Positions 16,501 through 31,898 of a DNA stretch of 42,681 bases are shown here, in pieces; within the stretch, counting starts at the first letter, position 1; each line of letters starts with the position of its first letter. The stretch comes from a virus, in the IMG/VR virus record IMGVR_UViG_3300006793_000075, positions 1-42,681 of that record; one strand, written 5' to 3'. The notes beneath the pieces are model-generated. The model saw nothing but the letters and a program-made list of their open reading frames with translations, searched no databases and was not told the DNA's origin. Made by a program: the position numbers and the translations under genes.

Positions 16501-18528
16501 TCTCCGTTAATTGTTACAAACAGATATATTGGTAACAGTTTACTTAGAAGATATAGTTTTGATTTATATCCAGGAACAAATGATAGTTTATTTGTAACAG
16601 TTGATGGTGTATATCTAAAACAAACTACAGATTATACTATTGATTACGAAAATAAAGAAATTGTTTTTGTTGATGCTCCAGACATTGGGGAAGTTGTAGC
16701 AATACAAACTCTTAATGTTGGCGGCGCAAATATTTTAGAAAGAAAAACATTTACAGGTGACGGAAGTACAACAGAATTTGAACTTACAGCCAAGTACAGT
16801 GATGTAGGAAGTGTTTTTGCAACAGTTAACGGTGTAAGTAAAACATATGTATTGCGTGAATCAACAACAGGTAGTGCAATAGTTGATATTACTAATCCGC
16901 CAAGTGTGTCTAATACAGTAATTCAAATTACTGCTTTAAGTTCAACTGAAAAAACATACAGTGAAATTATAAAAGAAGCAATTATTGATGATGGAAGTTC
17001 TATGGCATATACTATGTCAAACATTCCAGGCAATATTGCTCCTTATCATAACATGGTAATTGCAGAAGTAAAAGATATTAGCAGTGGTGTTGTAACTAGA
17101 TTACTTCCACCAGACACTGTTTACTATGTAAGCAACGGAATAACACAAAATTATACAGTAAGTCAAAACCCAGAGTACCCTGTGTTTAGTTTAGCACTAG
17201 GAGAAATTGAAGTTTATCTAAACGGAAACAAACTAGTACCAATTAGAGACTTTAACTTTGATACGCAAACTAATCTTGTAACATTTAACCAGAATGTTTT
17301 AACTTCCGGTGATGTGATTGCAATTACTATCCTTAAAAATCACGAGTATGAAATTAATGTTACTGGTGATAGTGCAGGAGATACTGAAGCAAACTTGGTA
17401 ATATTAAAAAGTAGATCAGATTTACCAACAAATGCAGAGTTCCATGTAACAACATTTACTAATCATGATTCAAACTTAATTAGAAAAGAAGTGTTTACTG
17501 GTAACTTAGGCGGCACTTATAAATTAAGTCGTCCTGCAATTGATTCAAACTATGTATGGGTTGAAATTGATGGTACACCATTAGTTGCAGAACGTGATTA
17601 TAAGATTTTAGATAACAATATAACTGTTGAGATTGATAATAAATTTACTGTATTAGCAACATCAAAAGTTACAATAACAACATTTAGTGAAGAATTAAGT
17701 TACGACTCTGTTGGATACAAAGTGTTTAACGATATGTTAGATAGAACACACTTCAAACGTATTAGTGATAACGATAGTACTAAACTAGCCGCAGATTTAT
17801 TGATTAGTGATAAAGAAATTACACTAACCGATACAAGTTTCTTTGATACTCCTTCGATAGCAGATAAAACACCGGGTGTTGTATGGATTGATAGAGAAAG
17901 AATTGAATTTTATAAAATTACTGGTAATAAACTAGGACAAATTACAAGAGGTACATTAGGTACAGGTATTAAAGATACACACAAATTAGGTAGTTTAGTA
18001 TTTGACGCAGGACCAGAGCAAACAGTTCCGTATAAAGAAAATATTAATGTATATGAAAGTGTTATAAGTCCAAATTTACCAAATGGTAGAAAAGAGCATG
18101 TATTAGAAACTGTAAATATAACAGGTAGTGCAAACGCACATGATCAAATTGAAGTATATTTGAGTGGCAGAAAACTACAAAAACCAACAGTAAGTACAAA
18201 TCCTATCAAAATTCATGATGCAGAAATTGCATATGATAGTAATGAAACTAACAGTGCAGGTACATCAAGTGATGTAACGCAAATAGCAGAGTTTACTGTA
18301 GAACCAGTAGCAGACTCAACAGGTAAAAGTTATTATAAGTTAATATTAAGGGATGAGCCTCAAGATGGTGCTCAACTAAAAGTAACACAGAAGCAAGGGC
18401 GTGTATGGTACGAACAAGGCGTTAATTCAGCGTCTACAGGCACCACACTACAACGTGCAGAAACTGCTCAAGCCAGGTTCTTACTAGAAAGAACCAGTGG
18501 CTTACCTGTAATAAATATTAGGGAATAA
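4582..18528 (+). CDS. Giant mosaic virion protein (4648 aa), gp7 position
   Basis: A single uninterrupted frame of 4648 codons lies between gp6 and a wedge-type protein, where T4 has gp7 (1032 aa). The N-terminus (to about residue 155, ending near RQYYWLPQGP) resembles the conserved start of the post-gp6 structural proteins of marine T4-like phages. Residues about 169-272 form a cupredoxin-like domain (APGHPF ... YYACANHQSMQG). Residues about 2100-2575 carry at least five FG-GAP-type blades (FGASVLVSNTKLLVGAP, FGSTMTANKDLSIVAISAP, FGYSLDMSDNGTTLIVSAP). Residues about 3400-3590 form a YHYH domain (GVYHYHADPS, LGYALDGYPIYGPYG). GxGY..AP repeats start near 2967, 3320 and 3624, and GDGSTT-type beta modules follow from about 3830 to 4300. 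It is very probably a baseplate or tail-fibre-network protein. Sugar binding by the propeller or YHYH parts is possible but not shown. Confidence 0.8.
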   Translation: MAYSDNNNAPVNKDNKDKFRNSADLLPMFFRTEANKKFLGATFDTLISKGQLEKINGFVGSRYSPTVKPEDRYLTEPTSNRRRYNLLPSVVIRDDFDDRTEWLATYDDLLNQLDFFNSETKNHNNLFSSKYYAWNPHIDFDKIANYRQYYWLPQGPSPVTVTGLAEGSISAFTVTNDSSGAYVFTPDGSSKNPVIKLFRGATYKFEVNAPGHPFNIKLAKTTGNTDLYTDGVTDNGTDNGTVVFTIPKGAPDILYYACANHQSMQGIFEIKDAVDELNIDIPTEVLGKTEYTSSNGVVFTNGLKVNFTGNVSPSKYKNKNYYVEGVGTGITLTPVTEFDTPEGYSQNFDYEFDVDSFDDTPYDDGESTPTTPEYVSINRASIDKNPWSRYNRWFHKEVIEATAKYNNTNIVLDETQRAKRPIIEFRPNMQLYNFATQGLGNIDVIDTVTTDAFSEVEGQIGYYVDQIDLTTGMRVTFTADPDITVAGKIYEVSFVTHGGKSRLRLEEVESGLTNTGIVVTNGVTNKGTSWYFNGTTWIKGQQKTTINQAPMFELFDNDGVSFTDTKYGVQNFVGNKLLSYKQGTGANDAILGFPISYQNVNNIGDICFNFDWDNDSFVYSTTDGNVLQDTAASVVKVNKSLTENTFESGWSLVDTKTRQKVIQLNDTIAETTLIEITAITNPGLYLTAKDIVVEYAGTVLKPNTGFTTTKSDDGKKLYINPVEFIPSDERITIKITTDEVPTQFGFYEAPINLTNNSENNDLTTFTLGSVTDHVRTIFSNNINVTGKFNNTSNARDIPNLYKSGTRYVKHQGSLLPAIFGLVDSETNVIKSIRKNALDYNVFKQQFLNMFETIEVTGAPRDDVDSILYSMSVNQNSNNSYFYSDMAGYGKSLSSTTYEVNTFEQQIFGIQSNFNLTANSNRSVYVYLNGEHLINGVDYNFDTIDNTVNLIKKTAIGDSVVIYDYNTIGSIIPSTPTKLGLYPKYTPEIYTDKTYITPTKIIQGHDGSKTKAFDDYRDELLLELEKRIYNNIKVEYNRDIFDNNEFKPGAFRKTDFTLDEFTSVLDDDFNYWSNLYSVNYLDNTTSVEGEIFSYNHNSGLDTVNGETLPGSWRGIYKKFFDTDRPHTAPWEMLGYSEKPSWWEGRYGAAPYTSGNDILWNDLEKGFDFNKQKANPVYARTGLSKIIPVDEYGDLKSPLQSNLVNNFITTNIGHDWVFGDMGPSEYSWRSSSWYPYVEQIALALLKPANYLTAQYDTSQNKVSPSGNIIYNSTGKILDFTDVKTHTLYYNNVRYFGSGYHVFVVDYMKQANQDVLTGYASRLAKTSMNLTYKTGAFVNKDRLRVLLESANPNSPDKSIFLPDENYEIAFRKSNPVYTASISGVVVEKVDKGYMVRGYDKYNPVFNIYPARLGQNDQAVNIGGTEANFIIWTEEKFYGAQQIVQYEGSYYRVKEDHTAQQQFDVSKYAKLAELPTTGGASAQIPTLFEDRLVRVPYQTVYTNKQDVYNFLLGYGQYLESIGFKFESRINELGEISDFRFSGKEFLYWTTQNFAKGSVITLAPFARNVSFEFSSGQVDNVLDTFYEYSIYNAGGNPISRKSISTVRDSGRFTLKPVDTQEGIFNVQLNLIQKEHVIVFDDKSVFGDIIYDQEAGYRQERIKLIGFKTTEWDGDLYSPGFVYDEAKISPWAQYRDYNLGDVVKYKTKFYTAKSFIAGEENFVYNKWSYLNQAPTAELLPNLDFKISSFQDFYNLDTETFDEASSKLSQHLVGYQKRIYLDNLIQDNTAQYKFYQGYIKEKGTTNAIDKISRLKIDDVQTDISIDEEWAFKVGSLGSNSTVKEIEFTLDESLNLENPQAYDFVSSVTSNTTPGNNIQITANNIAVKPVDYDNNPWPITTLDTTAGITSDYLNQLPVAGYPRLDDIPTTSVNYSDLVGSSVINQLDDSDLIWVAKDKDKDWNVYQLQTIPARVIQTDDLKTQFLDNEITLNTDIAHNLVVNQIISIKSFSESVDNVYLVKRINSTTQFVVEGSDTSTTLDDSTSGEILEFISNRVSNPDDINNIKNVSNIENDSLIFVDNDGTNKWAVYKKTRAFTENKWGSPNPITKQKFGYNIASANSGRTIVVAAPKFGDEGQIYILNREFNTGIQTLQVTQGFAISDNASDNIVSDAGLPALGTSLALSNDGTVLVAGASEASNFKAADDSTYASGFRVSVGNIDVAPSVFDREGVVTLHTYDTAENLFKRNYVIGCSEPESDLHFGASVLVSNTKLLVGAPGKTNFQGKVYIYDKTTRPDGSTLDWDLSDHHILSIPNSRDGDKFGSTMTANKDLSIVAISAPGYEEEGDDSTANKGAVFIYSLDSNNEYQLIQTLSSATFNQIDSGDSFGYSLDMSDNGTTLIVSAPYDDQNTINSGALYYFSKEVTADSTQDMYTYQQTIFSPLKQVQEQFGAKVSVNEDGTGFAVWSQHGQNRLTTTFDKFTLLEDSSLGETTRETTFDSQSLNIIDENYASGTVYTYTKLNTKFVYGQQLSSDTTQEFDEFGRGLIYTGNSLLVGAPNSKTADLTDDIGSLFVYQKTGSSGWNKIRTQDDPTDPYSVKKSFTFNTLKNDVKDFLETIDPVKGKIPYLAEKEISFKANIDPASYTRSDTNVTVKPTTAWTEEHVGQLWWDLSTVSYIWYEQGDTEYRKTNWGQQFPGSSIDVYEWVETDLLPSEWLELSVTQQGQSAGVSGTPKYNDDTLVQKNIYNFTSGGFETRYYYWVKNTVAVPNVKNRDLPAVEVANIINDPKTYGIKSIQLLSKNAISISNVKTTLDDKDVFLSVQYSNVDTDIPEHNEWQLISESQDKKIENTLLVKKLIDSAVGYDSEGNPVPDQALPVQRKYGIQVRPRQSMFVDRLDALKSIITFTNEVMSNTRVVDTKDINALSEKDPLPVSGSGKWDIQIDDYDELSQVGTEDLVTATATANIVNGRITSVNITNAGKGYKNAPAITISGTGTGAKLQSVIDAQGKITAINVNKTGKDYTVANLDIRPFRALVTLDSTANNNWTIYQWQASTKLWSRTNTQTFDLTRFWKYTDYVVAGFDIDSIINYKLKATYELNTITPIVGELVQVDNAGDGNKIILKRVISNGTFDDSYDLMYKANSTIQFNESVYNYELLNFGFAGQENYDVNLFDSEPIQETRRVLEIIRDNIFVDDLKDNWNKLFFIAVRYAFSEQTFVDWAFKTSFITVDNKLGGFSKKLNYKLSDPGYIEQYINEVKPYRTVIRNFYNSYDQVENTPVSNTDFDLPSYWDEENKIFVAPKITDDKITTEPYVNWFDNYKYNIGNVSVTDDGEGYTEAPVVIISGGRSNKPKIIQTNEFRPLVTTDYTDSRFYIKTTSIPDHGFSRNPGTFAVKSQDFTFEITRTPVEANTKVKTPMGAIGVAVNGVVFHNPKANSTEMRAGVDYTINAVHAGKLLSIDDGSGHPQEDGVYHYHADPSLMYTKDTTAHSPLLGYALDGYPIYGPYGWNTKSGRSNPRVMKSSYSLKTTVRSDGSNHDGTYVEDYEYIAGSGDLDEHNGRTCNTPEYPNGTYAYFVTVDPTDTNVQVYPYIVGPTYYGAPILPNGDKVLPGEAFVDATAVAYISRGIVREIVLTNPGSGYVSAPLVTLAGGGGENSVTRTAKAYARLENKKVRINAMSMKFDRIANSHLIQSQTQTDTFTATEGQIKFKLTYIPTLDKRQININIANETVYIENYDVSIVTLKDQTYKKQEGYIIFSVPPGKGKSVSITYEKSIDLMQATDRINYYYNPTAGMRGKEPSQLMTGVEYDGVKVQGLEFDISVGFDGLPWFSHGWDTFSGTNTDFAFRADGSTQTFTLPYTPEAGQEINVYFDNVRQDPTNTPTITGDGNTTAFTLDIGAPDGTLVVFRQKESDGSLVPTDVNNLDTILQGGNFQYSTATGQNPEDIDIDGDGFVTVDTSHAPEEVVPGQTFDSLSISVYNSPADGSPLIVTNRYIGNSLLRRYSFDLYPGTNDSLFVTVDGVYLKQTTDYTIDYENKEIVFVDAPDIGEVVAIQTLNVGGANILERKTFTGDGSTTEFELTAKYSDVGSVFATVNGVSKTYVLRESTTGSAIVDITNPPSVSNTVIQITALSSTEKTYSEIIKEAIIDDGSSMAYTMSNIPGNIAPYHNMVIAEVKDISSGVVTRLLPPDTVYYVSNGITQNYTVSQNPEYPVFSLALGEIEVYLNGNKLVPIRDFNFDTQTNLVTFNQNVLTSGDVIAITILKNHEYEINVTGDSAGDTEANLVILKSRSDLPTNAEFHVTTFTNHDSNLIRKEVFTGNLGGTYKLSRPAIDSNYVWVEIDGTPLVAERDYKILDNNITVEIDNKFTVLATSKVTITTFSEELSYDSVGYKVFNDMLDRTHFKRISDNDSTKLAADLLISDKEITLTDTSFFDTPSIADKTPGVVWIDRERIEFYKITGNKLGQITRGTLGTGIKDTHKLGSLVFDAGPEQTVPYKENINVYESVISPNLPNGRKEHVLETVNITGSANAHDQIEVYLSGRKLQKPTVSTNPIKIHDAEIAYDSNETNSAGTSSDVTQIAEFTVEPVADSTGKSYYKLILRDEPQDGAQLKVTQKQGRVWYEQGVNSASTGTTLQRAETAQARFLLERTSGLPVINIRE

Positions 18529-19186: not shown

Positions 19187-21208
19187 ATGGCATATAGTGT
19201 AAATTTTACAAATTCGATTAATAAGAATCCTATTGTCATTGATGACAATAGTCGTAACACTGTTGATACTTCGTTAACTTTTATAGGGCGTAACGAAGCA
19301 AGTTACGGACAAGCGATTGCAGAAAACTTTTTACATGTATTAGAAAACTTTGCAAACGTTACTCCACCAAATAATCCAATTGAAGGACAAGTTTGGTTTG
19401 ATAGTGCAACTAACAGATTAAAAATTAATGATTCAACAGCAGGTTCTGCAAACTGGAGACCAGCAGGAGGCGTACATGTTGAAGCAGTTGAACCAACAAA
19501 TCCACTAACAGGAGATGTTTGGGTTGATACAACAAACAATCAACTTTACATTTATACAGGTGCGGCATTCCAATTAGTTGGACCAAACTTTGCAGGCGGC
19601 CTTAAAGCAGGTGCTCAAGCAGAAGAAGTTGTTGATACACAAAATACTACTCATACAGTAATTAAAAACTATGTTGCAGATAAAGTTGTAACAATTATTT
19701 CAAAAGATCAATTTATTCCAAGACAAAAAATTGAAGGATTTGTAGAATTGTTTCCAGGTATTAATATTTCTTCTACAGATTTTGACAACAATGGAATATT
19801 ATTAAACAAATTACATGCAACAGCAACAAGGGCAGATGCATTAAATGTAACACAACCTGCTATTGAAACTGTAAATGCAAATAACTTTATAAGAAGTGAT
19901 ATTACAGATACAATGAACGGTCAGTTGTTTGTAAGAAACGACGGTGGTGTAACAGTTGGATCAAATCAAATTTTTAACTTAGAGATTGCAAGTAACAATG
20001 CTGTAATTAAAAATAACTCATTAGATGGTAACATTGACTTTAAAGTTTTTCCAGAAGCAGATAGAGATGTTGTTACTGTTATGCGTGTTGACGGAAGAAA
20101 CAAACGTATAGGTATTAATCAAGTTTCACCAACAGTAGCATTAGATGTAACTGGTAGTGGACACTTTACACAAAATTTACAATTATCAGCAACAGATACA
20201 TCAACATCAACATCAACCGGAGCACTTATTGTTGCAGGTGGTGCAGGTATTGCAGAAAACTTATTTGTTGGCGGTAATGCAAACTTCCAAGGACATATTC
20301 AAGTTGGCGAAACAGGTAGTGGTACAGTTGCTATTCAACCCACAGACAATGGAACACAAGCGTTTGATAAATCATTAGACATTGGTACTACAAACAATTC
20401 ATTTAGAAATGTTTATTCAGAAACATTTACAGGTAGACTAGTAGGTAGTGTTGTTGGTGATGTATTTGGTAACATTAATGGTACAGCAGATAGACTAGTT
20501 GCTTCAACAGTATTTAAAATTGGCGGACACGTTGCTGACTCTACAGGATTTAGTTTTGATGGTCAAACAGGTGGCGCAGAAAAAGTATTCAACGTAACAT
20601 TAACACAAGATGCTATTTCAGATCAAACAGCAGTTACAGACAACGAAAACGATGACGAATTATTAATTGTTAGATCAGGACAAGGACTTAAACGTACTAA
20701 AAGATCTAACTTTTTTGCAGGTGCTTCATTAGTACCAATTGGGGCAATTATGCCTTACGCAGGACCTATTACAACATTTGCAGATATTCCAAGTGGATAT
20801 TTGTTATGTGATGGATCAGAAGTTGCACAAGGTATATATCCAGACTTATTTGATGTAATTGCATTTACATACGGTGCTGGTGTTAACCCAAGTACATTTA
20901 AATTACCAGACTTACGTGGTAGATTTCCACTAGGTTTAGACAACATGGACAATGGAACTACAGTAAACGATGTTAGTGGTTCAGCAGTTGATGCAGGTGG
21001 TGGTACAGCAAACAGAGTTACAAATACTAGTGCAAGGTCACTAGGTGGTTCAGGAGGTGTTGAGCAAATCGATACAACTAACGTTGCATTTGGTAGTGGT
21101 ACACAATTCAGTGATACAACAGGAAGCGGACCATATCAGAATCAAAATGTAATGAATCCATATTTGGCGTTAAGTTACATTATTAGATCAGGGGAGCCAG
21201 CGGCGTAA
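19187..21208 (+). CDS. Tail-collar fibre protein, paralogue 1
   Basis: A 673-aa fibre-like protein. Residues about 1-130 form the module shared with the genes at 21208, 23061 and 26451 (FIGRNEASYGQAIAENFLHV, then GQVWFD, then GDVWVDTTNNQLYIY and a GP turn). The middle is a beta-rich shaft with FRNVYSETFTGRLVGSVVGD. Residues about 516-590 are a phage tail collar domain (PIGAIMPYAGP, IPSGYLLCDGS, FKLPDLRGRFPLG), the fold found in T4 gp12 short tail fibres. The shared module is probably the baseplate attachment end and the collar domain the distal end. It starts with ATG at 19187 just after the preceding gene (CGAAATGG), and its TAA overlaps the next ATG (TAATG). Confidence 0.8.
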   Translation: MAYSVNFTNSINKNPIVIDDNSRNTVDTSLTFIGRNEASYGQAIAENFLHVLENFANVTPPNNPIEGQVWFDSATNRLKINDSTAGSANWRPAGGVHVEAVEPTNPLTGDVWVDTTNNQLYIYTGAAFQLVGPNFAGGLKAGAQAEEVVDTQNTTHTVIKNYVADKVVTIISKDQFIPRQKIEGFVELFPGINISSTDFDNNGILLNKLHATATRADALNVTQPAIETVNANNFIRSDITDTMNGQLFVRNDGGVTVGSNQIFNLEIASNNAVIKNNSLDGNIDFKVFPEADRDVVTVMRVDGRNKRIGINQVSPTVALDVTGSGHFTQNLQLSATDTSTSTSTGALIVAGGAGIAENLFVGGNANFQGHIQVGETGSGTVAIQPTDNGTQAFDKSLDIGTTNNSFRNVYSETFTGRLVGSVVGDVFGNINGTADRLVASTVFKIGGHVADSTGFSFDGQTGGAEKVFNVTLTQDAISDQTAVTDNENDDELLIVRSGQGLKRTKRSNFFAGASLVPIGAIMPYAGPITTFADIPSGYLLCDGSEVAQGIYPDLFDVIAFTYGAGVNPSTFKLPDLRGRFPLGLDNMDNGTTVNDVSGSAVDAGGGTANRVTNTSARSLGGSGGVEQIDTTNVAFGSGTQFSDTTGSGPYQNQNVMNPYLALSYIIRSGEPAA

Positions 21209-23046
21209 TGAGTTATACAGTAAACAAAACAAACGGTTCAGTTTTAACTATTGTCGGTGACGGTACAGTTGATGCAACATCAACAGATATTACACTAGTT
21301 GGTAGAAAATACAGTGGGTACGGAGAAGTACTTAACGAAAATACAATTAAGTTATTAGAAAATTTTGCAAACAGAACAGCACCTAACTCACCGTTAGAAG
21401 GACAAGTTTGGTATGATACATTAGAAGGACGTTTAAAAGTTTATACTGGTAGCGTTTTTAAACCAACTGGTGGTCCTTTAGTTCAAGATACAGAACCAGC
21501 AGGATTAGTTATTGGTGATTTATGGATTAACAACGAAGCAAACCAACTTTACTTTTATGACGGAGTGGATCTAAGTTTAGCAGGTCCTATATATTCAAAT
21601 GCAGAAGGTAAGCATGGGTGGATTGTAGAAAACCTTGTTGACACAGGAAACAATGGGCGTTCAATTACAGGTTTATGGGTAAACGGAGAACGTATAGGTA
21701 TTTTAAGTAGATACCAATTTACACCACAAACAGCAATTAATGGATTTGCAAGTATTAATGTTGGTTTAAATTTTAGTACGGCAGTAACAGGATTAAAATT
21801 ACACGGTACAGCAACATCAGCAGATGCAGTTGCAGGTATTGCTCCTGGACAGTTTTTACGTTCAGATGAAAGTGATATTACAACAGGTACACTTGGTGTA
21901 CTTAATGATGGCGGACTTACATTAGGTTCTTCTAGTAACTTTACACAATTTATTAGTAGTACTGTAACAACATTTAAAAACAACCTACAAGATAGAGATT
22001 GGTTACTACAGGTTAACTCAAGTGTTACCGGTGGATTAACAAATGCAATTGATATTGATAGTTCTTCACTTACACTAAAATTATTTGAAGGTAGAGAAAC
22101 TAGTAACGTTGTAATGGGTGGTGATTTAACTATTGATGGAAATCTTATTGTAAGTGGAGACACAACAACAGTTAATGTTGCTACAATGAGGGTTGAAGAT
22201 AAAAACATTGAACTTGCATACGGCGGAACGCCAACTGATACACTAGCAAACGGTGGAGGTATTACTCTTAAAGGTACAACTGATCATACAATTAATTGGG
22301 CAAACAGCACAACAAATTGGACTACTAGTGATAACTTTGGTGTTGCATCAGGTAAGCATTTCCATGTAAATGATGTATTAGTATTAAGCAATGACACTTT
22401 AGGTGCAGGAGTTGTAAATTCAAGTTTAACAAATGTAGGAACACTTACAGAATTACAAGTTGATAGTTTAGAACTAAATGGTAACACAATTTCTACTATT
22501 ACAACAAACACAGATTTAAATATTGATGTACATGGTACAGGTAATGTTGTATTTGATAATGAAGAATCAACACCAGTTACACAAATTAAAGGTGTAGCAG
22601 ATCCAACAGTGGCACAAGATGTTGCTACTAAAAATTATGTTGATACAGAAATTACAAATCAAGATATCATTATAACTATGAACGTTACAGGAATGGCAAG
22701 TCAAAACACAGTTGAAATTCCAGCAGAATTAGCAAAACTAGCACCACCAGTAAATTACCAAGTTGGTACACAAGCAAGAATATTGTGTGAAACACTTTCA
22801 CTTGCAGGTACACCAACTACTATTACAACAAACACAGGAACAACTACAGGTTTAACAAACGAATTATTAGTTAATCAAGTAGCAGTAGACAAAGATGGAA
22901 GTGTAAGTAGTGCAAGTGTAGTACAGAGTCTGAGTTTTCCAAATGGTATAACACCAAGTGGTAACTCAATTGCAGTAGCAAGAACAACTAAAATATTCGA
23001 AATCCAAACAGGTCCATTAAGATGGGCGTATGTGAGTGATGTGTAA
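21208..23046 (+). CDS. Fibre-like virion protein, paralogue 2
   Basis: A 612-aa member of the four-gene fibre family. The N-terminal 130 residues match the shared module (TDITLVGRKYSGYGEVLNEN, LLENFANRTAPNSPLEGQVW, WINNEANQLYFYDG). The centre is a repetitive beta-rich shaft. The C-terminal part begins with KNYVDTEI and continues with a block, LAPPVNYQVGTQARIL, that has a clear counterpart in the next gene (LAPPENFKEGTTARIL). There is no collar domain, so it ends differently from paralogue 1. It starts by TAATG overlap, with GGGGAG upstream as ribosome-binding site. A role as a tail fibre or baseplate appendage follows from family and position. The receptor is unknown. Confidence 0.75.
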   Translation: MSYTVNKTNGSVLTIVGDGTVDATSTDITLVGRKYSGYGEVLNENTIKLLENFANRTAPNSPLEGQVWYDTLEGRLKVYTGSVFKPTGGPLVQDTEPAGLVIGDLWINNEANQLYFYDGVDLSLAGPIYSNAEGKHGWIVENLVDTGNNGRSITGLWVNGERIGILSRYQFTPQTAINGFASINVGLNFSTAVTGLKLHGTATSADAVAGIAPGQFLRSDESDITTGTLGVLNDGGLTLGSSSNFTQFISSTVTTFKNNLQDRDWLLQVNSSVTGGLTNAIDIDSSSLTLKLFEGRETSNVVMGGDLTIDGNLIVSGDTTTVNVATMRVEDKNIELAYGGTPTDTLANGGGITLKGTTDHTINWANSTTNWTTSDNFGVASGKHFHVNDVLVLSNDTLGAGVVNSSLTNVGTLTELQVDSLELNGNTISTITTNTDLNIDVHGTGNVVFDNEESTPVTQIKGVADPTVAQDVATKNYVDTEITNQDIIITMNVTGMASQNTVEIPAELAKLAPPVNYQVGTQARILCETLSLAGTPTTITTNTGTTTGLTNELLVNQVAVDKDGSVSSASVVQSLSFPNGITPSGNSIAVARTTKIFEIQTGPLRWAYVSDV

Positions 23047-23060
23047 GGAAATAAAGAGCG

Positions 23061-25454
23061 ATGCCATATCAAATAGATAAAACAGACGGAACAGTACTAG
23101 TAACATTAGCCGACGGAGTTGTAGACAATTCAACAGACTTACAACTTGTAGGTAGAAATGTTGCAGGCTACGGTGAGCAACAAAATGAAAACTTTGTTAA
23201 GTTATTAGAAAACTTTGCAAGAGCAGATACACCACCAAGTAAACCGCAGGTTGGCCAATTATGGTTTGATAAAAATGCAGACAAACTTCGTCCAAGTGTG
23301 TTTGATGGAGTACATTGGCGTAACCTTTCAATTACACAAGTTTCAGCAACAGAGCCACAAGGACAAAAAGAAGGTGACCTATGGTGGGATACTGTAAACA
23401 ATAAATTATATGTTTTTGTTGCAGACGGTAATCAACACGTATTAGTAGGTCCTGAAAGTATATTAGGCTTTGGTAAAACAAAGTGGGAAACAACTAAACT
23501 TACAGACACATCAGCAGGTGAACATCCAGTTAGTATTGGATATGTTGATGGTAGTGCATATATGGTAATGGCAGATACTGCATTTGAAATTGATCAAACA
23601 GTAACACCTTTAACTGGATTTACAAGAATAGGCGAAGGCCTAACTTCTAAAGGAACAAACATTGACGGAGTAACATCAGGAACTACAAGATTTTTTGGTA
23701 CAGCAGGTGATGCAGATAGACTAGGCGGACGTTTAGCAAGTACATGGGCAAATAGAAACGACAACGAAATTATTACAGGAACATATAGTTTTCAAAATGA
23801 TGGTGGTATTACAATAGGTGATACACTTGAATTAAGTTTAAAAGTTATTAATGCTAACGAACCAAGTATTTTTGCAGAGTTTGGAGACCAATTAAATTTA
23901 GGTGTTAACTATTCAGGTAGTGGATTTGATAAAACAACAATTTACTTAAAAGAAAAAAGTGTGTTACCTTATGCTAACAACGAAGTTAGTTTAGGATCTC
24001 CAAGTAGAAACTTTAGAAACGTATATGCAACAGACATTTATGCAAACTTTATTGGTACACTTGCAGGATCTATGGTTGGTACAACAACAGGTGCTAACAG
24101 AGGTCCACTACAAGATAGTTCAGGAGCGACAGTTATTGATCCAGATACAGGATTATCTTACACAATTAACGTTGGTAATTCACAAGCAACAAACGGGTTA
24201 ACAGTAGTAGATGTTGATGCAACTACAACAGCACCGATTGTACCAACTAGTGCAGGAACACTTAGAGGTAGATTTGAAGGTTCGTCTGCATTTGTTGATT
24301 ACGGAGTTTATACTAATCAAAATAATGTATTAGCAGGATCAAACACTTATAACGGTACATCAGTTTTTAACGGAAGTTCTACGCATACAGCATTAACTTC
24401 AACAAACGTAAACTTATCAGTTGGTAGAATTGGTAGAGGAGCAATTACAAGTCCTAATCCAGATCCAAACACTACTATTGGAGATTTATTAATTGATAGA
24501 GTAACTATTAACGAATCTAAAATACAAGATAGTGATATAAGAGCAGGAACAATTACAAACGGTACTGTAATTGACGGAGCCGACATTGGCCAAAATGCAC
24601 CAGCAATACAAGTTAAAGCACAAAAATTTGTTGATGCTGTTGGAGCAGAAGTAACACGTATTAGTGATGATGGACAATTTTTACAAAACAGTACAACTAA
24701 CCTTGTTACTGAACGTGCTATTAAAGAATATGTAGATACAACATTCCAGTCAACAGGACAAGACATACAGTTTTATCTTGATACTAAAGATATGACAACA
24801 TCAGATGTTGGAACACAACTTACAAGACTTGCACCACCTGAAAACTTCAAAGAAGGAACTACAGCAAGAATTTTAGGTAGTTATTATTATGGCGATTTAG
24901 GAACAGATAGTAGCGGACAACCTTTCTTTGTAAAGAAATATGGTACTACTGTTCAAAGAGGTATTGGTTATATTGGAGGACGAACTGTTACTAGAGCAAT
25001 TGGTGCAGTACAAGGATTAATTAATAAAAAATCTGCAACACAAGGTTATGAATTTCAATTAAGTGCAACAGGAAGCATTACAACTGATACTCAAACACAT
25101 AATCCAAATACAAATCAAGGTGACTTTACACAAAAATTAGGTAATGGTACTATTGACGGTTGGTATGTATTTCCAAATGCTCCATTAAACGGAGACCAAG
25201 CAGATGAATTTTCAACTGATGCAGTACAAGGTGCAAAAGTAGTTGTAGTAAGAAATGGTCTAGTAGAAACTTATAGTTCAAGTGACAGTATTTTACAACT
25301 AGTAGTTGGCAACGTTACGTTTACTAGAGCGGCGGCTAGTTACTGGAATGGTACAGTTAGCCTTGCAGGATATGCAGTGGCAGTACAAGGATATGCATTT
25401 GATAGAACTTCAAGAACAAGTTCTGCGGCATGGGTATATAGGGGTAATATTTAA
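23061..25454 (+). CDS. Fibre-like virion protein, paralogue 3
   Basis: A 797-aa fibre-family protein and the longest of the four. The shared N-terminal module is clear (LVGRNVAGYGEQQNENFVKL, PQVGQLWFD, EGDLWWDTVNNKLYVF). The shaft contains the frequent fibre motif SLGSPSRNFRNVYATDIYAN followed by Gly/Thr turns. The C-terminal block starts at AIKEYVDTTF and DIQFYLDTKDM, with LAPPENFKEGTTARIL as in paralogue 2, and then continues into a unique end that closes with SAAWVYRGNI. AAGGA lies about 12 bases before the ATG. Its stop overlaps the following oxygenase gene (TTTAATG), so the two are translationally coupled. Confidence 0.75.
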   Translation: MPYQIDKTDGTVLVTLADGVVDNSTDLQLVGRNVAGYGEQQNENFVKLLENFARADTPPSKPQVGQLWFDKNADKLRPSVFDGVHWRNLSITQVSATEPQGQKEGDLWWDTVNNKLYVFVADGNQHVLVGPESILGFGKTKWETTKLTDTSAGEHPVSIGYVDGSAYMVMADTAFEIDQTVTPLTGFTRIGEGLTSKGTNIDGVTSGTTRFFGTAGDADRLGGRLASTWANRNDNEIITGTYSFQNDGGITIGDTLELSLKVINANEPSIFAEFGDQLNLGVNYSGSGFDKTTIYLKEKSVLPYANNEVSLGSPSRNFRNVYATDIYANFIGTLAGSMVGTTTGANRGPLQDSSGATVIDPDTGLSYTINVGNSQATNGLTVVDVDATTTAPIVPTSAGTLRGRFEGSSAFVDYGVYTNQNNVLAGSNTYNGTSVFNGSSTHTALTSTNVNLSVGRIGRGAITSPNPDPNTTIGDLLIDRVTINESKIQDSDIRAGTITNGTVIDGADIGQNAPAIQVKAQKFVDAVGAEVTRISDDGQFLQNSTTNLVTERAIKEYVDTTFQSTGQDIQFYLDTKDMTTSDVGTQLTRLAPPENFKEGTTARILGSYYYGDLGTDSSGQPFFVKKYGTTVQRGIGYIGGRTVTRAIGAVQGLINKKSATQGYEFQLSATGSITTDTQTHNPNTNQGDFTQKLGNGTIDGWYVFPNAPLNGDQADEFSTDAVQGAKVVVVRNGLVETYSSSDSILQLVVGNVTFTRAAASYWNGTVSLAGYAVAVQGYAFDRTSRTSSAAWVYRGNI

Positions 25455-25942
25455 TGTATGAAGTTGTTGATAACTTTATAACAAATGTTGATGGAATTAT
25501 GGAACTGGTTAAACAACACGAAGCAGAAGGGCGTTTTACTAATAGAGGAATTGGTGGAACAGACACTCATGCAACTGTGTATGGTGAAAGTCATTTTTCT
25601 AGTCTATATGAAAAAAATATGGATGAGAAATTAGTTGAAACAGTTTGGGAAACTATACCTAAAGAACGCAAGTGGTGTTCACAGATTGTTGTAAACAAAT
25701 ATAAACCTGGTGATTGGTTAATTAGACATCAAGATAGTGCAGGTGGGTATTGGAAGTTTATGCTAGTGTTTTTAACACAAGGTAAGCCTCATTTTAAGTA
25801 TTGGGACAAAGATGAAAAAGAACATTTAGTCCAAGAAGTAAAAGGTGCAATGTTTAAAATGCCAATTGAAACTTGGCACGAAGTAACAAAAATAGAAAAT
25901 GACGAAGAACCCAAGTATAGTCTTTGTCTAATATGGGAATAA
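25454..25942 (+). CDS. 2OG-Fe(II) oxygenase-like protein in the fibre operon
   Basis: A 162-aa protein with the layout of the 2-oxoglutarate/Fe(II)-dependent dioxygenase superfamily. The HxD iron motif is seen at H92-Q-D94 (KPGDWLIRHQDS), the distal iron ligand at H142 (ETWHEV) and a candidate 2OG-binding Lys at 154 (EPKYSLCLIWE). Between them lie the usual core strands (WKFMLVFLTQ, GAMFKMP). Such enzymes hydroxylate protein side chains, nucleic acids or small molecules; the substrate cannot be read from sequence. It overlaps the fibre gene before it by one base and is followed by a possible fibre-assembly protein. This suggests, but does not prove, action on fibre or other virion proteins. 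Confidence 0.65.
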   Translation: MYEVVDNFITNVDGIMELVKQHEAEGRFTNRGIGGTDTHATVYGESHFSSLYEKNMDEKLVETVWETIPKERKWCSQIVVNKYKPGDWLIRHQDSAGGYWKFMLVFLTQGKPHFKYWDKDEKEHLVQEVKGAMFKMPIETWHEVTKIENDEEPKYSLCLIWE

Positions 25943-25946
25943 GGAT

Positions 25947-26423
25947 ATGGCAAAAGAAAAATTTAAATTAATGTTTAATGCCAAAAACGGAACACTCTTA
26001 GGACATCTTCCTAAGGGCATGGACACTTTTGGTTTAGATCCTGCAGAAGTAAAAATAAGGACTGTACAATATGATCCTGAACAAGAAGTCTTCATAGGAA
26101 CTTATGCAGATGGAAAAGTTATTAAGATAAGCGATGCAGATGACGGCAAAGCATTTATTGATGAAGAGGTATTAAATGCAGGAGTGCAAGATGACATTGC
26201 TGAAAAATACCCAATGCATAGACAACTTAATATTATTATTGATATGTTAGATAAGTGTGATTATCCTAATACTCCAGAATTTAAGGAAATGGTAGAATAT
26301 ATTAAAGATTTACGTGAAATGAATAAAACACGTAAAGAGCAATATAAATCTAGCGATGCATACTTTTTTGCAGATAAAGAACTTTCTAAACTTGATCGCA
26401 AGAAACGTATGGGCGAAGCATAA
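25947..26423 (+). CDS. Unknown, possible fibre-assembly or minor virion protein
   Basis: A 158-aa soluble, charged protein that I do not firmly recognise. The N-terminal half is beta-like (FKLMFNAKNGTLLGHLPKGM, VQYDPEQEVFIGTYADGK). The C-terminal half is helical and starts with EKYPMHRQLNIIIDMLDKCD, a pattern reminiscent of tail-fibre chaperone-type proteins and of a small family found near fibre genes in marine phages. The end is very basic and acidic by turns (LSKLDRKKRMGEA). It starts 4 bases after the oxygenase stop with AAGGA just upstream, and precedes the fourth fibre gene. The chaperone role is an inference from position and the C-terminal pattern only. Confidence 0.4.
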   Translation: MAKEKFKLMFNAKNGTLLGHLPKGMDTFGLDPAEVKIRTVQYDPEQEVFIGTYADGKVIKISDADDGKAFIDEEVLNAGVQDDIAEKYPMHRQLNIIIDMLDKCDYPNTPEFKEMVEYIKDLREMNKTRKEQYKSSDAYFFADKELSKLDRKKRMGEA

Positions 26424-26450: not shown

Positions 26451-28199
26451 ATGCCATATATTATTAATACATACAACGGACAACAAATTGCAGTAGTACA
26501 AGACGGTACTGTAGATAGTACTACAGATATTAAACTTGTAGGTAAAAACTATGCTGGATTTGGTGAAATCATTAATGAGAACTTTGTACACTTATTGGAA
26601 AGTTTCTCAGGTGCTAATCAACCACCTAACCCTTTAGCAGGACAAGTTTGGTATGATAGTGCTAACCGTGTTATTAAGTTTTATGATGGTAATAGATTTA
26701 GAATTGCAGGCGGTGCTGAAATTGGACCAAACCAACCAGTAGGTTTAGCACGTGGAGACCTTTGGTGGGAAACAGATGGTGAACAACTATATGTTTACAA
26801 CGGTGAAGATTTTATTCTTGTTGGTCCTGTAAGTACAGGTGGTGAAGGTGTATCACAGGTTACTTCAAGAGTAGTAAAAGATGTTAGTGCAAACGACAGA
26901 ACAATATTAACTTATACAGTTAATGACGCAGTAATGGGTATTACTGCTAAAGACGAATTTATATTAGATAGTTCTAAAAATCCTATTGCTGGATTTAGTT
27001 CAATCAAAAAAGGTTTTAACCTAGCAAACGAATCTTCAGTTCCAGGTATACGTTATCACGGAACAGCAGTAAATGCAGATAACTTAGGCGGAATTCCAGC
27101 GGCACAATATGTACTTAATAGTGGACTACAAAGTTTTGCAGATCAAGTTAAATTTTTAGGTGATGAAGGACTAACTGTAGGTGCAGGCGAAGATTTAAAA
27201 TTACACATCACAAGTGGTGATGTTGGAAACCTTACTAACCAAGTAGGTAATGCAATACAGTTTCAAGTTAATACAGGAACAGGTGCGGCAGTAGTTGCAA
27301 AGTTTAATCAAAATCAATTTTTACCAGCAACAAATAATACAGGATCATTAGGATCAATTAGTACACGTTGGGCAAACGTCTATTGTGGAAATATTGATAT
27401 TGATTCAACAGGAGTATTAACTGGTGACGTAACAGGTAACTTAACAGGTAACAGTGCAGGTACACATACTGGAGATGTAGTAGGTAACGTTACTGCAAGT
27501 ACAGGAACAAGTTCATTTAATAACCTTACTGTAAACGGTACATTAACTGCAACAGTACAAGGTACATCAGATGTTGCTAACAAATTAGTAGTAGATGCAG
27601 GTACAGCAAGAGAAGCAAATACGTTGCTTGTAAATAATAGTATTGTTGCTAGAGATTCAAACGGTGATATTAACGTAAACATCTTAAACGGTACTGCAAC
27701 TAACTCACAGGGATTAAATGGTGCTAGTGCAAGTACTACTGCAACAGCAGGTACTATTGCACAAAGAGATGGTAATAAAGATTTAACAGCAAGAAAGTTC
27801 TTAGGAACTGCAACCGCGGCACAGTTTGCTGACTTGGCTGAAATATACAAATCAGATTTAGATTACGAACCAGGTATAGTTTTAATATTTGGTGGTGATG
27901 AAGAAGTTACAACAACTGACAAGTTCTGTGATCATAGAATAGCAGGTATTGTTAGTACTGAACCAGCACACTTAATGAATTCAAATGCTGAAGGTGTTGC
28001 AGTAGCACTTAGAGGTAGAGTTCCGTGTATGATGGAAGGTCCTACTAAAAAAGGTGACCTGGTTGTAACAAGTCCAAAAAACGGAATAGCAACTTGCTTA
28101 TCAGCAGATAGTGCTTTACCTAGTTCAATTTGTATCCTAGGAAGATGCTTAGAAAACAATAATGAGCAAGGTATTAGACTAGTAGAAGTTGTAGTTTAA
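26451..28199 (+). CDS. Fibre-like virion protein, paralogue 4, distinct C-terminal domain
   Basis: A 582-aa fibre-family protein. The shared N-terminal module is present (TDIKLVGKNYAGFGEIINEN, GQVWYD, RGDLWWETDGEQLYVY). The shaft has SLGSISTRWANVYCGNIDID followed by Gly/Asn/Thr repeats (LTGDVTGNLTGNSAG). Residues about 460-582 form a separate C-terminal domain: ADLAEIYKSDLDYEPGIVL, then RIAGIVSTEPAHLMNS, then KKGDLVVTSPKNGIATCL. This resembles the Peptidase_G2/IMC-type C-terminal domain of phage appendage proteins, which helps trimerisation and can cleave itself off. The likeness is partial and I cannot confirm catalytic residues. The start has a good ribosome-binding site (AGAGGA, 7 bases before ATG). 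It is the last plus-strand gene. Confidence 0.75.
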   Translation: MPYIINTYNGQQIAVVQDGTVDSTTDIKLVGKNYAGFGEIINENFVHLLESFSGANQPPNPLAGQVWYDSANRVIKFYDGNRFRIAGGAEIGPNQPVGLARGDLWWETDGEQLYVYNGEDFILVGPVSTGGEGVSQVTSRVVKDVSANDRTILTYTVNDAVMGITAKDEFILDSSKNPIAGFSSIKKGFNLANESSVPGIRYHGTAVNADNLGGIPAAQYVLNSGLQSFADQVKFLGDEGLTVGAGEDLKLHITSGDVGNLTNQVGNAIQFQVNTGTGAAVVAKFNQNQFLPATNNTGSLGSISTRWANVYCGNIDIDSTGVLTGDVTGNLTGNSAGTHTGDVVGNVTASTGTSSFNNLTVNGTLTATVQGTSDVANKLVVDAGTAREANTLLVNNSIVARDSNGDINVNILNGTATNSQGLNGASASTTATAGTIAQRDGNKDLTARKFLGTATAAQFADLAEIYKSDLDYEPGIVLIFGGDEEVTTTDKFCDHRIAGIVSTEPAHLMNSNAEGVAVALRGRVPCMMEGPTKKGDLVVTSPKNGIATCLSADSALPSSICILGRCLENNNEQGIRLVEVVV

Positions 28200-28300: not shown

Positions 28301-28960
28301 CTATAGTTCTTGTACTAACGGAAAGATTTTAGCAATAACTTTGGCACAAGCATGTGCAATATCCATATGTTCTTTTTGTGTGCCGTTAGCACCACGCAAC
28401 TCAATATAGTGAACCCAACTACGTAAACTACCATTCATATATAATGTAGTTTTTGTAATACCTTCGGGTAATACTTTACGTGCTTGTTCTTTTGCAATAC
28501 CTTTTTTGATTGCCCAATCGTATTCTTTTTTGGCTAGTACTGCAATACGTCTTTGTGCATGTTCCCAATCAAGTTGTAGTTTTGCATCATCAACATCAAT
28601 AGAATTTTGTCTGTTCTTTGGATCTTGTAATCGTGCTTCTGAGTATTCGAACATATCGCCTTGATCTTCAGGATTAGCATAACGCTGACTAAACTCTTGG
28701 AAAGCAAAACTTCTATGTCTTACAATTTGGTGTGCAATATCACGTGTAGTTTGAATTTCTAAACAAGCACTTACCATTTCTAAAGGTGACCAATGTGCAT
28801 GTTTAATTAAGTACTTGATAAGTTTTTCGTTAGTTTCTTTATTCATTTGATTGCTTGGGTTACTTACCCTAGCACAAAAGGCAATTAGATCTTGTACATT
28901 ATCTAAATCATTTTTAAAATCTTGTGTTGGTTGTGAATAACTTACTAGGTTAACTTTCAT
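28301..28960 (-). CDS. thyX: Flavin-dependent thymidylate synthase ThyX
   Basis: This enzyme makes dTMP from dUMP with methylene-tetrahydrofolate, FAD and NADPH, and so supplies thymidine for phage DNA synthesis. The ThyX signature is seen at residues 81-94 as RHRSFAFQEFSQRY (family RHRxxSxNExSxRY, here Ala and Gln at two variable positions). HAHWSPLE (residues 54-61) and RKVLPEGITKTTLYMNGSLR further on match conserved FAD/dUMP-binding parts. The length of 219 aa is normal for the family. It is the most distal gene of the minus-strand module. Its ATG lies directly at the end of the neighbour (stop ends at 28961), so it is probably translated by coupling. Confidence 0.95.
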   Translation of the reverse strand: MKVNLVSYSQPTQDFKNDLDNVQDLIAFCARVSNPSNQMNKETNEKLIKYLIKHAHWSPLEMVSACLEIQTTRDIAHQIVRHRSFAFQEFSQRYANPEDQGDMFEYSEARLQDPKNRQNSIDVDDAKLQLDWEHAQRRIAVLAKKEYDWAIKKGIAKEQARKVLPEGITKTTLYMNGSLRSWVHYIELRGANGTQKEHMDIAHACAKVIAKIFPLVQEL

Positions 28961-29347
28961 TTACTTCTTCTTTCCTTTTTTCTTTGCTTCAGCGTTTTTA
29001 CGTTTGATTGTTTTGTTTACTTTCTTAGTAAAAGCATTTCTTGCTTGGACGACTTGTCCTTGTAGATTAGTCATATCAACTCTAAAATCAATATGCTCAA
29101 CATTGTTACCATGTTCTCTAATTAGATTGTTTACTCTTAATGCGGCCTCTTGTAGATGTCCACTTTGAGCAAGGATATTAGGTACGTCGATTACTATCTT
29201 ATTACCTTTTTTTAGATTAAGTGTGAGTTCTCTTATATATTGAACAGGAAGGCTTTCGATTTTGATTTCATCGATAACGCCTTCCCATTCTGGATTGTTT
29301 GTCTCATCACCGTGGAGTATTATTCGTCCAGGGTTCTTTTCGTCCAT
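28961..29347 (-). CDS. Unknown, basic C-terminal tail
   Basis: A 128-aa protein that I recognise only as a type found in T4-like marine phages, with no known function. The first part is a beta-like segment (GRIILHGDETNNPEWEGVID, then YIRELTLNLKKGNKIVIDVP). The middle is helical (LQEAALRVNNLIREHGNNVE). The last 30 residues are strongly basic (KKVNKTIKRKNAEAKKKGKKK), which suggests binding to nucleic acid or ribosomes. It starts by TAATG overlap with the gene upstream and abuts thyX downstream. Confidence 0.55.
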   Translation of the reverse strand: MDEKNPGRIILHGDETNNPEWEGVIDEIKIESLPVQYIRELTLNLKKGNKIVIDVPNILAQSGHLQEAALRVNNLIREHGNNVEHIDFRVDMTNLQGQVVQARNAFTKKVNKTIKRKNAEAKKKGKKK

Positions 29348-30303: not shown

Positions 30304-30612
30304 TTAGTATGTTGCTAGGCTCTCGGTATGCAAAACTGAGCAACCCAAACTAAACATAGTTGATTCAGAACCTTGTTCAAAACCAACCTTATATACAATT
30401 TCAACCTTGTTATCTACTAGTTCTGTATCACTAATGATACAAAATCTTCCGCTTAGATTGTTGTAAATCCATTGTCTACAAGCCTCTATATTTGATGTAA
30501 TGTCCCATGGGTTACCTTTTATTATTACAGTAGTCCATGCTTTTGGACAAAAGTTTATTTCACGTATTTCTAACACATTTAATGGATTAGGTTTGTCGTG
30601 TAAAAACCTCAT
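30304..30612 (-). CDS. Unknown 102-aa protein coupled to the vWA gene
   Basis: The ATG overlaps the TGA of the vWA/metallopeptidase gene (ATGA), so it is translated directly after it and may act with it. The protein is mixed alpha/beta (VLEIREINFCPKAWTTVIIK, ACRQWIYNNLSGRFCIISDT, KVEIVYKVGFEQGSESTMFS), contains three Cys and no recognisable motif. I do not recognise the family. Confidence 0.5.
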   Translation of the reverse strand: MRFLHDKPNPLNVLEIREINFCPKAWTTVIIKGNPWDITSNIEACRQWIYNNLSGRFCIISDTELVDNKVEIVYKVGFEQGSESTMFSLGCSVLHTESLATY

Positions 30613-31898
30613 GCCGCCATTTCTCTTTTATCATCGTAATGACAAGTAATACCATGCGGTGCTTCAATTGAAGTATCAGAGTGTATAACCCAAATTGTAT
30701 CACAATAGTTTTCGTCACCCCAGTTCCATGAGTAACCATCTGTGAATACAATTAGTTTTTTAGGTTGAATATCGTTCTCTTTCATATACACCCAATTAGC
30801 ATCAAAGTCTGTACCGCCACCACCGTGTAGTTCGTAATCTTCAATAGTTACACCTGAGTCTGGTGTAAAGTCTTGTTCGTTATACACTTCAGTATCAAAG
30901 CACCATACTTTAATTTTGTAATCATCATATTGATCACAAATGCCTTTAACTTCACTTAAGAAGTCTTGTGCTTCTGCATTAGCAATTGAACCTGACATAT
31001 CAAGTGCAATAGCAATATCAATTGTTTGATCAAAATCCATACCAGGAAGTATTGCACCTGTGTGCCATGCTTTACGTGATGGACGCATAAATGTATAGTT
31101 ACTCTTAATAACACTTTGAATCTGTTGATTAAGTAGTTCACGCCAGTTCATTTTAGGCTCTGTAAGATCTTTAATCAATCTTGCTACACCTTTAGGAACA
31201 TTGCCAACACCAGCCGCCTGTGCCGCTGATACCATTGCTTCTTTCATTTCGTCACGTATCTTTTTTAATTCTTCTTTTGAGTAAGAAGGTTGCTTACCTT
31301 TACCACTTTTACTCTTTTTAGTTTTACCTGCAGGACCTTGTCCTTTACCTTTTTCCCAATCAATATGTTCGTCAAGCAATCTACCTAATTGTTGTAGTTG
31401 TTCTTGATCATATTTTTTAAAAATGTCATCGTATACTTCTTCTGAAGCCCAACCATAATATTTTGCATCGTGAAATGGTTTTACTTGTGTAATTACTTCT
31501 CCAATATTATGACGAATCAAATCACCGTTAACACAATAGTCAGCGGCAATGTTATAAATTTGTGCATCACGGTCATCTCTACGTGTAAAGTGATCATAAA
31601 CACAGTGTAGGATTTCATGTCCAAACAAGAATTCAGTTTGCTTTTGATTAAGACTGTTTACAAAGTTTTCATTGTAATAAAAGTTTTTACCATCAGTGGC
31701 GGCAGTTGCACACCAGTCTGTTGCATCAATAATTTTAAGACGTGTTGCTAAATTACCAAAAAACGGCTGACGGATTAGCAATGCAATTCTTGCAGTTGTT
31801 AATCTTTCTTTTACTTTATTACTATCGACAGCAGGATCTTTATCATAGATCTTACCATCTAACATTGTTTGTTCTACTGCGGTTGTTTCTTGTGACAT
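30609..31898 (-). CDS. HExxH metallopeptidase-like / vWA-domain protein (DUF2201 type)
   Basis: A 429-aa protein of the DUF2201 type, with an N-terminal zinc-metallopeptidase-like domain and a C-terminal von Willebrand A domain. H94-E-I-L-H98 (GHEILHCVYDHFTRR) is the zinc motif, with D120 (NIAADYCVN) as probable third ligand. The linker from about 195 is Lys/Gly/Ser-rich. The vWA MIDAS is complete: D300-M-S-G-S304 (ALDMSGSIANAEA), then GGGGTDFDANW with the Thr, and VFTDGYSW with the Asp. Proteins of this kind usually work with a MoxR-type AAA+ ATPase, as one is encoded at 33270-34361. The target is unknown. A strong sigma70-like promoter lies just upstream, and AGGAG sits 6 bases before the ATG. 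Confidence 0.8.
   Translation of the reverse strand: MSQETTAVEQTMLDGKIYDKDPAVDSNKVKERLTTARIALLIRQPFFGNLATRLKIIDATDWCATAATDGKNFYYNENFVNSLNQKQTEFLFGHEILHCVYDHFTRRDDRDAQIYNIAADYCVNGDLIRHNIGEVITQVKPFHDAKYYGWASEEVYDDIFKKYDQEQLQQLGRLLDEHIDWEKGKGQGPAGKTKKSKSGKGKQPSYSKEELKKIRDEMKEAMVSAAQAAGVGNVPKGVARLIKDLTEPKMNWRELLNQQIQSVIKSNYTFMRPSRKAWHTGAILPGMDFDQTIDIAIALDMSGSIANAEAQDFLSEVKGICDQYDDYKIKVWCFDTEVYNEQDFTPDSGVTIEDYELHGGGGTDFDANWVYMKENDIQPKKLIVFTDGYSWNWGDENYCDTIWVIHSDTSIEAPHGITCHYDDKREMAA

Follow-up and report, generated by a model that had tools for sequence, protein, structure and literature searches.

The closest described relatives of the gene studied here lie in phiKZ and other Pseudomonas phages, where members of the phiKZ gp137 family are often labelled 'DNA endonuclease' in GenBank (PHROG 2297; e.g. 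PHIKZ137 of NC_004629.1, NC_010821.1 and NC_041994.1); the Churi record already names its family member '2OG-Fe II oxygenase'. Phage 2-oxoglutarate (2OG)-Fe(II) oxygenases are numerous. Passages of three papers propose roles in DNA repair or in 2OG/nitrogen signalling for the 2OG genes of cyanophages (PMC3037559, PMC2984593, PMC9146016). The accessible text on Phold describes EGLN3-like phage proteins as widespread, with their annotation confirmed by structure alone, and mentions no fibre link (PMC12774648); that of the SPN3US virion proteomics contains nothing on hydroxylation (PMC10052503). Here we analyzed one gene, termed OX, in a DNA stretch of 42,681 nucleotides from a marine phage (IMG/VR record IMGVR_UViG_3300006793_000075, positions 1 to 42,681; the window). 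OX is a fibre-linked branch of this known enzyme superfamily, and no description of its gene cassette was found in the literature searched. By title and abstract opening, that literature contained no report of hydroxylated phage fibres, and 'PHIKZ137' occurs in none of its papers; subscription papers were largely outside it, and a prior description is possible.

OX (25454..25942, + strand) starts with ATG and encodes 162 amino acids. It follows a 797-residue tail-fibre gene (23061..25454, + strand), the candidate substrate, whose TAA stop codon at 25452-25454 shares its final A with the OX start codon at 25454-25456, giving TAATG. A purine-rich AGGGG is located about 9 nucleotides before the OX ATG, inside the fibre codons. 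The partner gene (25947..26423, + strand; 158 amino acids, PHROG 13209), a relative of phiKZ gp136 and a proposed assembly factor, begins 4 nucleotides past the OX stop with AAGGA immediately ahead of its ATG, and a fourth fibre-type paralogue of 582 residues (26451..28199, + strand) forms the downstream flank. On the same strand, the fibre block is preceded by genes for the baseplate wedge and for giant virion-structural proteins, whereas thyX, an exonuclease and other genes form a metabolic block on the opposite strand from 28301. An earlier, sequence-only reading of this DNA had placed a 2OG-Fe(II) oxygenase gene at exactly these coordinates, with its start inside the fibre stop codon and among structural genes outside the metabolic module; these three points were all confirmed.

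The arrangement is well conserved. Viral-contig pattern scans using the window protein and family alignments gave 21 window-type relatives with identities of 48-83 %; L085 and L086 were added later through the partner, and the truncated contig L107 through the tip of the fibre. The order 797-type fibre, OX, 158-residue gene and 582-type fibre was observed in 19/19 loci, with identities to the window of 68-83 % for OX and 42-92 % for the fibre. Some contigs of the set are near-identical (L001/L002 and L021/L022/L024), and the independent loci are fewer than these counts. The exact TAATG is present in 18 of the 21 relatives; the exceptions are L020 (11-nucleotide overlap), L007 (2-nucleotide gap) and L065 (short gap), and L085 and L086 have a 9-nucleotide gap between fibre and OX. 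Since TAATG is retained so widely among the sequences compared, the overlap is not due to chance. In comparisons with four relatives, the ratio of nonsynonymous to synonymous substitution rates is 0.06-0.15 for OX and 0.18-0.21 for the fibre; it is lower for OX in each pair, with synonymous sites close to saturation. Two short-pattern scans of a genome collection with the two family alignments found no cellular relatives of OX, which is weak evidence of absence.

Sequence searches with the window protein gave little. It matched no 2OG model in Pfam (best CDC73_C, E 0.23) and nothing in NCBIfam; the best hit in the PDB sequence search reached only E 0.56, and tblastn against phage records returned nothing at 1e-5. 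PHROG 2297 was the sole profile match (E 0.0016, residues 15-151), and the relative L065 matched it with E 1.6e-8. An AlphaFold2 model built from 14 relatives has a mean predicted local distance difference test score (pLDDT) of 92.2 and a predicted template modelling score (pTM) of 0.88. The top PDB match by Foldseek is the Pseudomonas putida prolyl-4-hydroxylase (P4H) in complex with EF-Tu (E 9.9e-8, template modelling score 0.71). In VIA-align, the top ranks are PHD2 (3oui; Z 16.8, root-mean-square deviation 2.3, 145 residues aligned) and P4H (4j25; Z 15.8), and all of the 999 aligned PDB chains have Z>=5, consistent with a double-stranded beta-helix fold. As modelled, OX looks like a 2OG-Fe(II) oxygenase whose top-ranked structural matches are protein prolyl hydroxylases.

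The alignment pattern agrees with this fold. Among 66 OX sequences (55 distinct; the window is present twice, as WIN and L008), the H92-x-D94 pair of the facial triad (25727..25735, + strand; H92 25727-25729, D94 25733-25735) and H142 (25877..25879, + strand) are invariant, and position 154, a lysine in the window (25913..25915, + strand), is arginine in 43 and lysine in 23. From this pattern we infer that H92, D94 and H142 are the metal ligands and that K/R154 is the expected ligand of the 2OG carboxylate. N81, Y83, G86, L107 and G131 are also invariant. For the phiKZ gp137 family, five of six members match PF13640, with a best E of 2.1e-5, slightly below the curated cutoff; phiKZ gp137 itself scores 25.8 bits against the cutoff of 27. 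The 2OG-Fe(II) oxygenase label given by the sequence-only reading thus stands on predicted fold, triad and remote homology, without a direct Pfam or NCBIfam profile match. Since an oxygenase is suggested by fold and triad alike, the 'DNA endonuclease' label of the family is probably wrong.

The remote relatives were reached through PHROG 2297 and one weak tblastn match, obtained at an E limit of 10, to the Pseudomonas phage Otagovirus Astolliot (E 4e-5). Relatives of phiKZ gp137 were found in 72 phage records, all of them Pseudomonas phages, and 7 regions were inspected; the scan with a phiKZ-type alignment added 36 viral-contig loci. Profiles of the window half and the phiKZ gp137 half of the OX family align with a probability of 95.7 (E 9e-9, about 22 % profile identity). 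For the partner, tblastn recovered 54 records, in which the match is the phiKZ-like gene before the enzyme; Psa21 is the best (E 2e-6) and phiKZ gp136 is weaker (E 7e-3). The window and phiKZ-type partner profiles align with a probability of 99.3 (E 5e-20). Two separate homologies that fall onto one gene pair are the strongest result of this study.

In total, 66 regions were compared, namely 57 viral-contig loci, 7 isolate regions and the window twice; Noxifer and 201phi2-1 are counted both as isolate and as contig, and several contigs are near-duplicates. As all these regions were retrieved via OX, the presence of OX is by construction, whereas that of the partner is not. Both genes are present in 66/66 regions, adjacent in 62 and with a further gene, gene C, between them in 4. 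Three orders were observed: OX-partner (23), partner-OX-C (39) and partner-C-OX (4). A reverse scan with the partner alignment gave 22 loci, and OX is present in 21; L084 starts within the partner at the contig end. The cassette lies beside tail or virion-structural genes in phiKZ (gp137/gp136), 201phi2-1, Noxifer and the T4-like Otagovirus. Judged from these gene orders and profiles, OX makes up one half of a conserved cassette of two or three genes found in unrelated phage lineages; the sequence-only reading had noted a single gene.

Gene C (PHROG 14616) was found in L009 (6408-6884), L011 (9453-9941) and 41 other regions, and was not found in the window-type regions. It is a remote paralogue of OX (hhalign probability 86.7), and its alignment lacks the HxD pair; it is perhaps a pseudo-oxygenase that lost the iron-binding residues.

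The genes next to the cassette are of virion type. In a PHROG scan of the upstream gene in 48 regions, the commonest named matches, counted per family and not as a union over members, were virion structural, tail, tail-fibre and collar-fibre proteins. The sequence-only reading had suggested that the enzyme may hydroxylate virion proteins, a post-translational fibre modification; it had proposed a comparison of synteny and would have taken a gene equally common away from fibres as a refutation. In the inspected regions OX lies beside tail or virion-structural genes together with its PHROG 13209 partner, and the fibre-side placement is retained across unrelated lineages; this comparison did not refute the suggestion, which is partly supported. 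A second 2OG family, PF13759 (E 1.6e-15 in L001), served as control. It is located near thyX on the other strand in relatives such as L001 and L003. Its phage relatives comprise 119 records; in the three loci sampled, a small number, it stands with psbA/psbD/glutaredoxin genes twice and with helicase-loader and carbamoyltransferase genes once, and thus away from fibres in 3/3. In the 201phi2-1 record, the fibre-type gp216-220 and gp224 are marked 'identified as virion protein by mass spectrometry', and the cassette genes gp221-223 are unmarked. This pattern, from a single record's annotation, fits enzymes or assembly factors that leave the particle.

Taken together, these observations are consistent with OX being an active Fe(II)/2OG-dependent protein hydroxylase of a tail-fibre maturation cassette, which would modify the fibre during assembly; we give this reading a probability of about one half. 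The cassette would consist of OX and the PHROG 13209 partner, plus a triad-less OX paralogue in most other lineages. Re-initiation at the TAATG of the fibre stop would produce OX beside the nascent fibre, at the same place and time. OX could then hydroxylate a fibre side chain, perhaps of a proline and most likely within the tip region at the C-terminus, either ahead of folding and assembly or as these proceed; the partner may act as assembly factor. OX itself would not remain in the virion.

Several observations weigh against this reading. The gp225 of 201phi2-1, which is not part of the cassette, also carries no mass-spectrometry mark. In 43/66 regions the partner, not OX, is the first gene behind the upstream gene. 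AlkB (3khb) follows closely in the structural ranking, with Z 14.3 in VIA-align, and SnoN and AlkB are both within about 2.5 Z of the top P4H and PHD2 rows; therefore, the fold alone does not settle the substrate class of OX. Tips of window-type fibres resemble those of the other lineages only weakly; the best profile pair by hhalign, between the window set (marineA) and marineB, has a probability of 14.2. Finally, L005 appears to be a recombinant. For most of the fibre stretch compared it shares 91-100 % identity with the window, except at about 24,804-25,103 (59-87 %), and in the fibre gene behind the pair it shares 96-100 %. Between about 25,450 and about 26,400 (about 1894-2870 in L005) it is instead 96-100 % identical to L006 and just 63-89 % identical to the window. 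L005 may thus have gained OX and the partner as one block whose breakpoints fall near the ends of the two genes, although an assembly chimera is possible. Since its pair sits beside a different, mostly window-like fibre allele, a link between OX and the partner, which seem more closely tied to one another than either is to the fibre, is favoured, and a strict specificity of OX for its fibre is weakened.

The main rival builds on this link. It holds that OX is active and has the PHROG 13209 protein as its substrate or as an obligate partner in a complex; that protein would itself handle the fibre, which would be affected only indirectly. The joint presence of the two genes throughout, their adjacency in 62 regions, the block movement suggested by L005 and the partner's place right after the upstream gene in most regions are all in its favour, and the partner is as likely a contact of OX as the fibre is. 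On the other hand, OX is closest to the fibre in all 23 window-type regions, and its start overlaps the fibre stop in most of them. Only six columns are invariant among 36 partner sequences (F10, N11, G51, E73, I84 and M115); Asn11 is the only classic target among them, and no Pro, Lys or Asp is strictly retained. We consider this explanation possible, with the odds clearly against it. Assignment of the partner to a known chaperone family is unsupported: no Tfa family was among the Pfam matches of the 36 members, and comparisons with PDB sequences and PDB folds gave no convincing match to a known chaperone. The partner model has a low pTM of 0.42, and apart from B3FJ83, the partner's relative in 201phi2-1 (E 1.6e-7), it has no strong structural match.

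If OX hydroxylates the fibre as in our preferred reading, the tip offers a candidate site. The conserved tip core (24729..24911, + strand) contains LTRLAP (24819..24836, + strand; residues 587-592, L587-P592), an LxxLAP motif resembling that recognised by the hypoxia-inducible factor (HIF) prolyl hydroxylases; we noticed it only after the PHD2 fold match. The form L-x-x-[L/I]-A-P is present in 19/19 window-type fibres. The 612-residue paralogue (fib612; 21208..23046, + strand) has the same tip core with LAKLAP and no OX behind it; among such paralogues 14/16 keep the motif and the remaining two have MxxLAP. In the window's other + strand open reading frames over 250 amino acids, LxxLAP is absent. 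The tip-core scan found 20 contigs, of which 19 were previously known, with OX downstream in 20/20 (L107 is cut by the contig end), and tblastn of the core against phage records gave no match. As that scan returned no tip relative lacking OX, conservation for structure and conservation as a target are indistinguishable. In 11 aligned tip cores A32, P33 and the neighbouring G-T-x-A-R-I are all invariant, so the motif may equally well be retained for structure alone. That OX is a prolyl hydroxylase reading LxxLAP in the two window fibres of 797 and 612 residues, with hydroxylation of receptor-binding tips by the cassette common to unrelated lineages and with convergence on the motif that HIF prolyl hydroxylases recognise in animals, is in our view doubtful.

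Outside the window type, LxxLAP was rejected as a general target, as even a loose [LMI]..[LMI][AS]P pattern occurs in only 2/33 upstream fibres of other lineages. A single tip domain common to all lineages is partly supported at most and is not claimed for the window. Probabilities of the tip profile pairs are 89.9 for marineB-Otago, 83.6 for marineB-L61, 71.3 for phiKZ-marineB and 74.5 for marineB-fib612, the last covering the connector stretch; marineA-fib612 reaches 96.5, as expected for paralogues. Most other cross-lineage pairs are below 4, and pairs with two control fibre sets are at most 3.4.

Loss of catalysis is another alternative, in which OX would have a structural or chaperone-like role and use the oxygenase fold without chemistry. 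Gene C, a remote paralogue aligned without HxD, indicates that the fold may serve in such a way. However, all three triad residues and a basic position 154 are kept in 66/66 OX sequences across lineages that share about 22 % profile identity, and OX evolves more slowly than its fibre, which makes this explanation improbable. We hold a role in which OX targets nucleic acids or the 2OG pool, i.e. AlkB-like repair or nitrogen signalling with the fibre-side place as inherited gene order, to be a similarly slim prospect. The Z of 14.3 reached by AlkB structures, the RuvC-like gene a few genes off in Noxifer and Viktualia and the accessible proposals of DNA repair or 2OG/NtcA modulation by cyanophage 2OG genes (PMC3037559, PMC2984593, PMC9146016) speak for it; against it, the fibre-side position recurs in several unrelated lineages with differing gene orders, within virion-gene blocks, and no repair gene adjoins OX in the window. 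Hydroxylation of a host protein such as EF-Tu by an enzyme merely expressed late, which the top Foldseek match to the P4H-EF-Tu complex would suit, is very improbable, as it leaves the partner gene, the fibre overlap and the fibre-side placement unexplained.

Other features of the window were also recorded. A fibre-type paralogue with a collar domain is located at 19187..21208 (+ strand), and 4582-18528 is a single open reading frame of 4,648 amino acids that matches PHROG 10938, a virion structural family, and PHROG 2576. The C-terminus of the 582-residue fibre (27760-28190) carries a module of about 140 residues that is common to Pseudomonas jumbo phages and partly to Campylobacter phages. 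At 28301-29347, the window thyX directly adjoins a 128-residue gene, unlike relatives such as L001 (8807-10558), where a deaminase-like gene and the second 2OG oxygenase, of the PF13759 family, lie around thyX. At 30609-31898 and 33270-34361, we observed a protein that contains HEILH as well as a DMSGS stretch, named 'HNH endonuclease' by PHROG 1314, and a nearby ATPase (PHROG 1297). We take these stretches to be metallopeptidase/VWA-like motifs, and the two proteins are perhaps a MoxR/VWA-type pair.

Within the large set of phage 2OG oxygenases, the OX family has a fixed and informative fibre-side context in several lineages, including the laboratory-growable phiKZ. If our preferred reading is true, phages with this cassette would need a post-translational step for host recognition, which would be missed when fibres are transplanted as DNA; many records would also need their 'DNA endonuclease' label corrected. 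If the LxxLAP reading were also true, fibre maturation would depend on oxygen and 2OG.

Tail-fibre assembly proteins include T4 gp38 and the Tfa proteins of lambda and Mu. Like them, the partner is encoded by a small gene near a fibre gene and is apparently not in the virion; different from Tfa, it has no Tfa match in Pfam and no convincing fold match in the PDB. Like OX, the cyanophage 2OG-Fe(II) oxygenases of the PF13759 type and others are phage enzymes, found in marine myoviruses; however, the PF13759 type belongs to another family, and its control loci contain psbA/psbD/glutaredoxin or replication genes. The collagen prolyl hydroxylase of PBCV-1 (5c5t) is a virus-encoded 2OG protein hydroxylase with a fold similar to that of OX (E 7.4e-7), but its virus infects algae. 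The P. putida P4H, an EF-Tu hydroxylase (4iw3/4j25), and PHD2 resemble OX in predicted fold and triad. Compared to these two enzymes, the phage OX shares about 11-18 % identity, is shorter and fibre-linked, and is known from its sequence and predicted fold. The closest system is gp136-gp137-gp138 of phiKZ (PHROG 13209, 2297 and 14616), also present in 201phi2-1, Noxifer and Otagovirus Astolliot, in which homologous OX and partner genes, named 'DNA endonuclease' or hypothetical, lie by paralogous virion or tail-fibre genes. The phiKZ-type order is fibre, partner, enzyme and gene C, whereas that of the window is fibre, enzyme and partner, without gene C.

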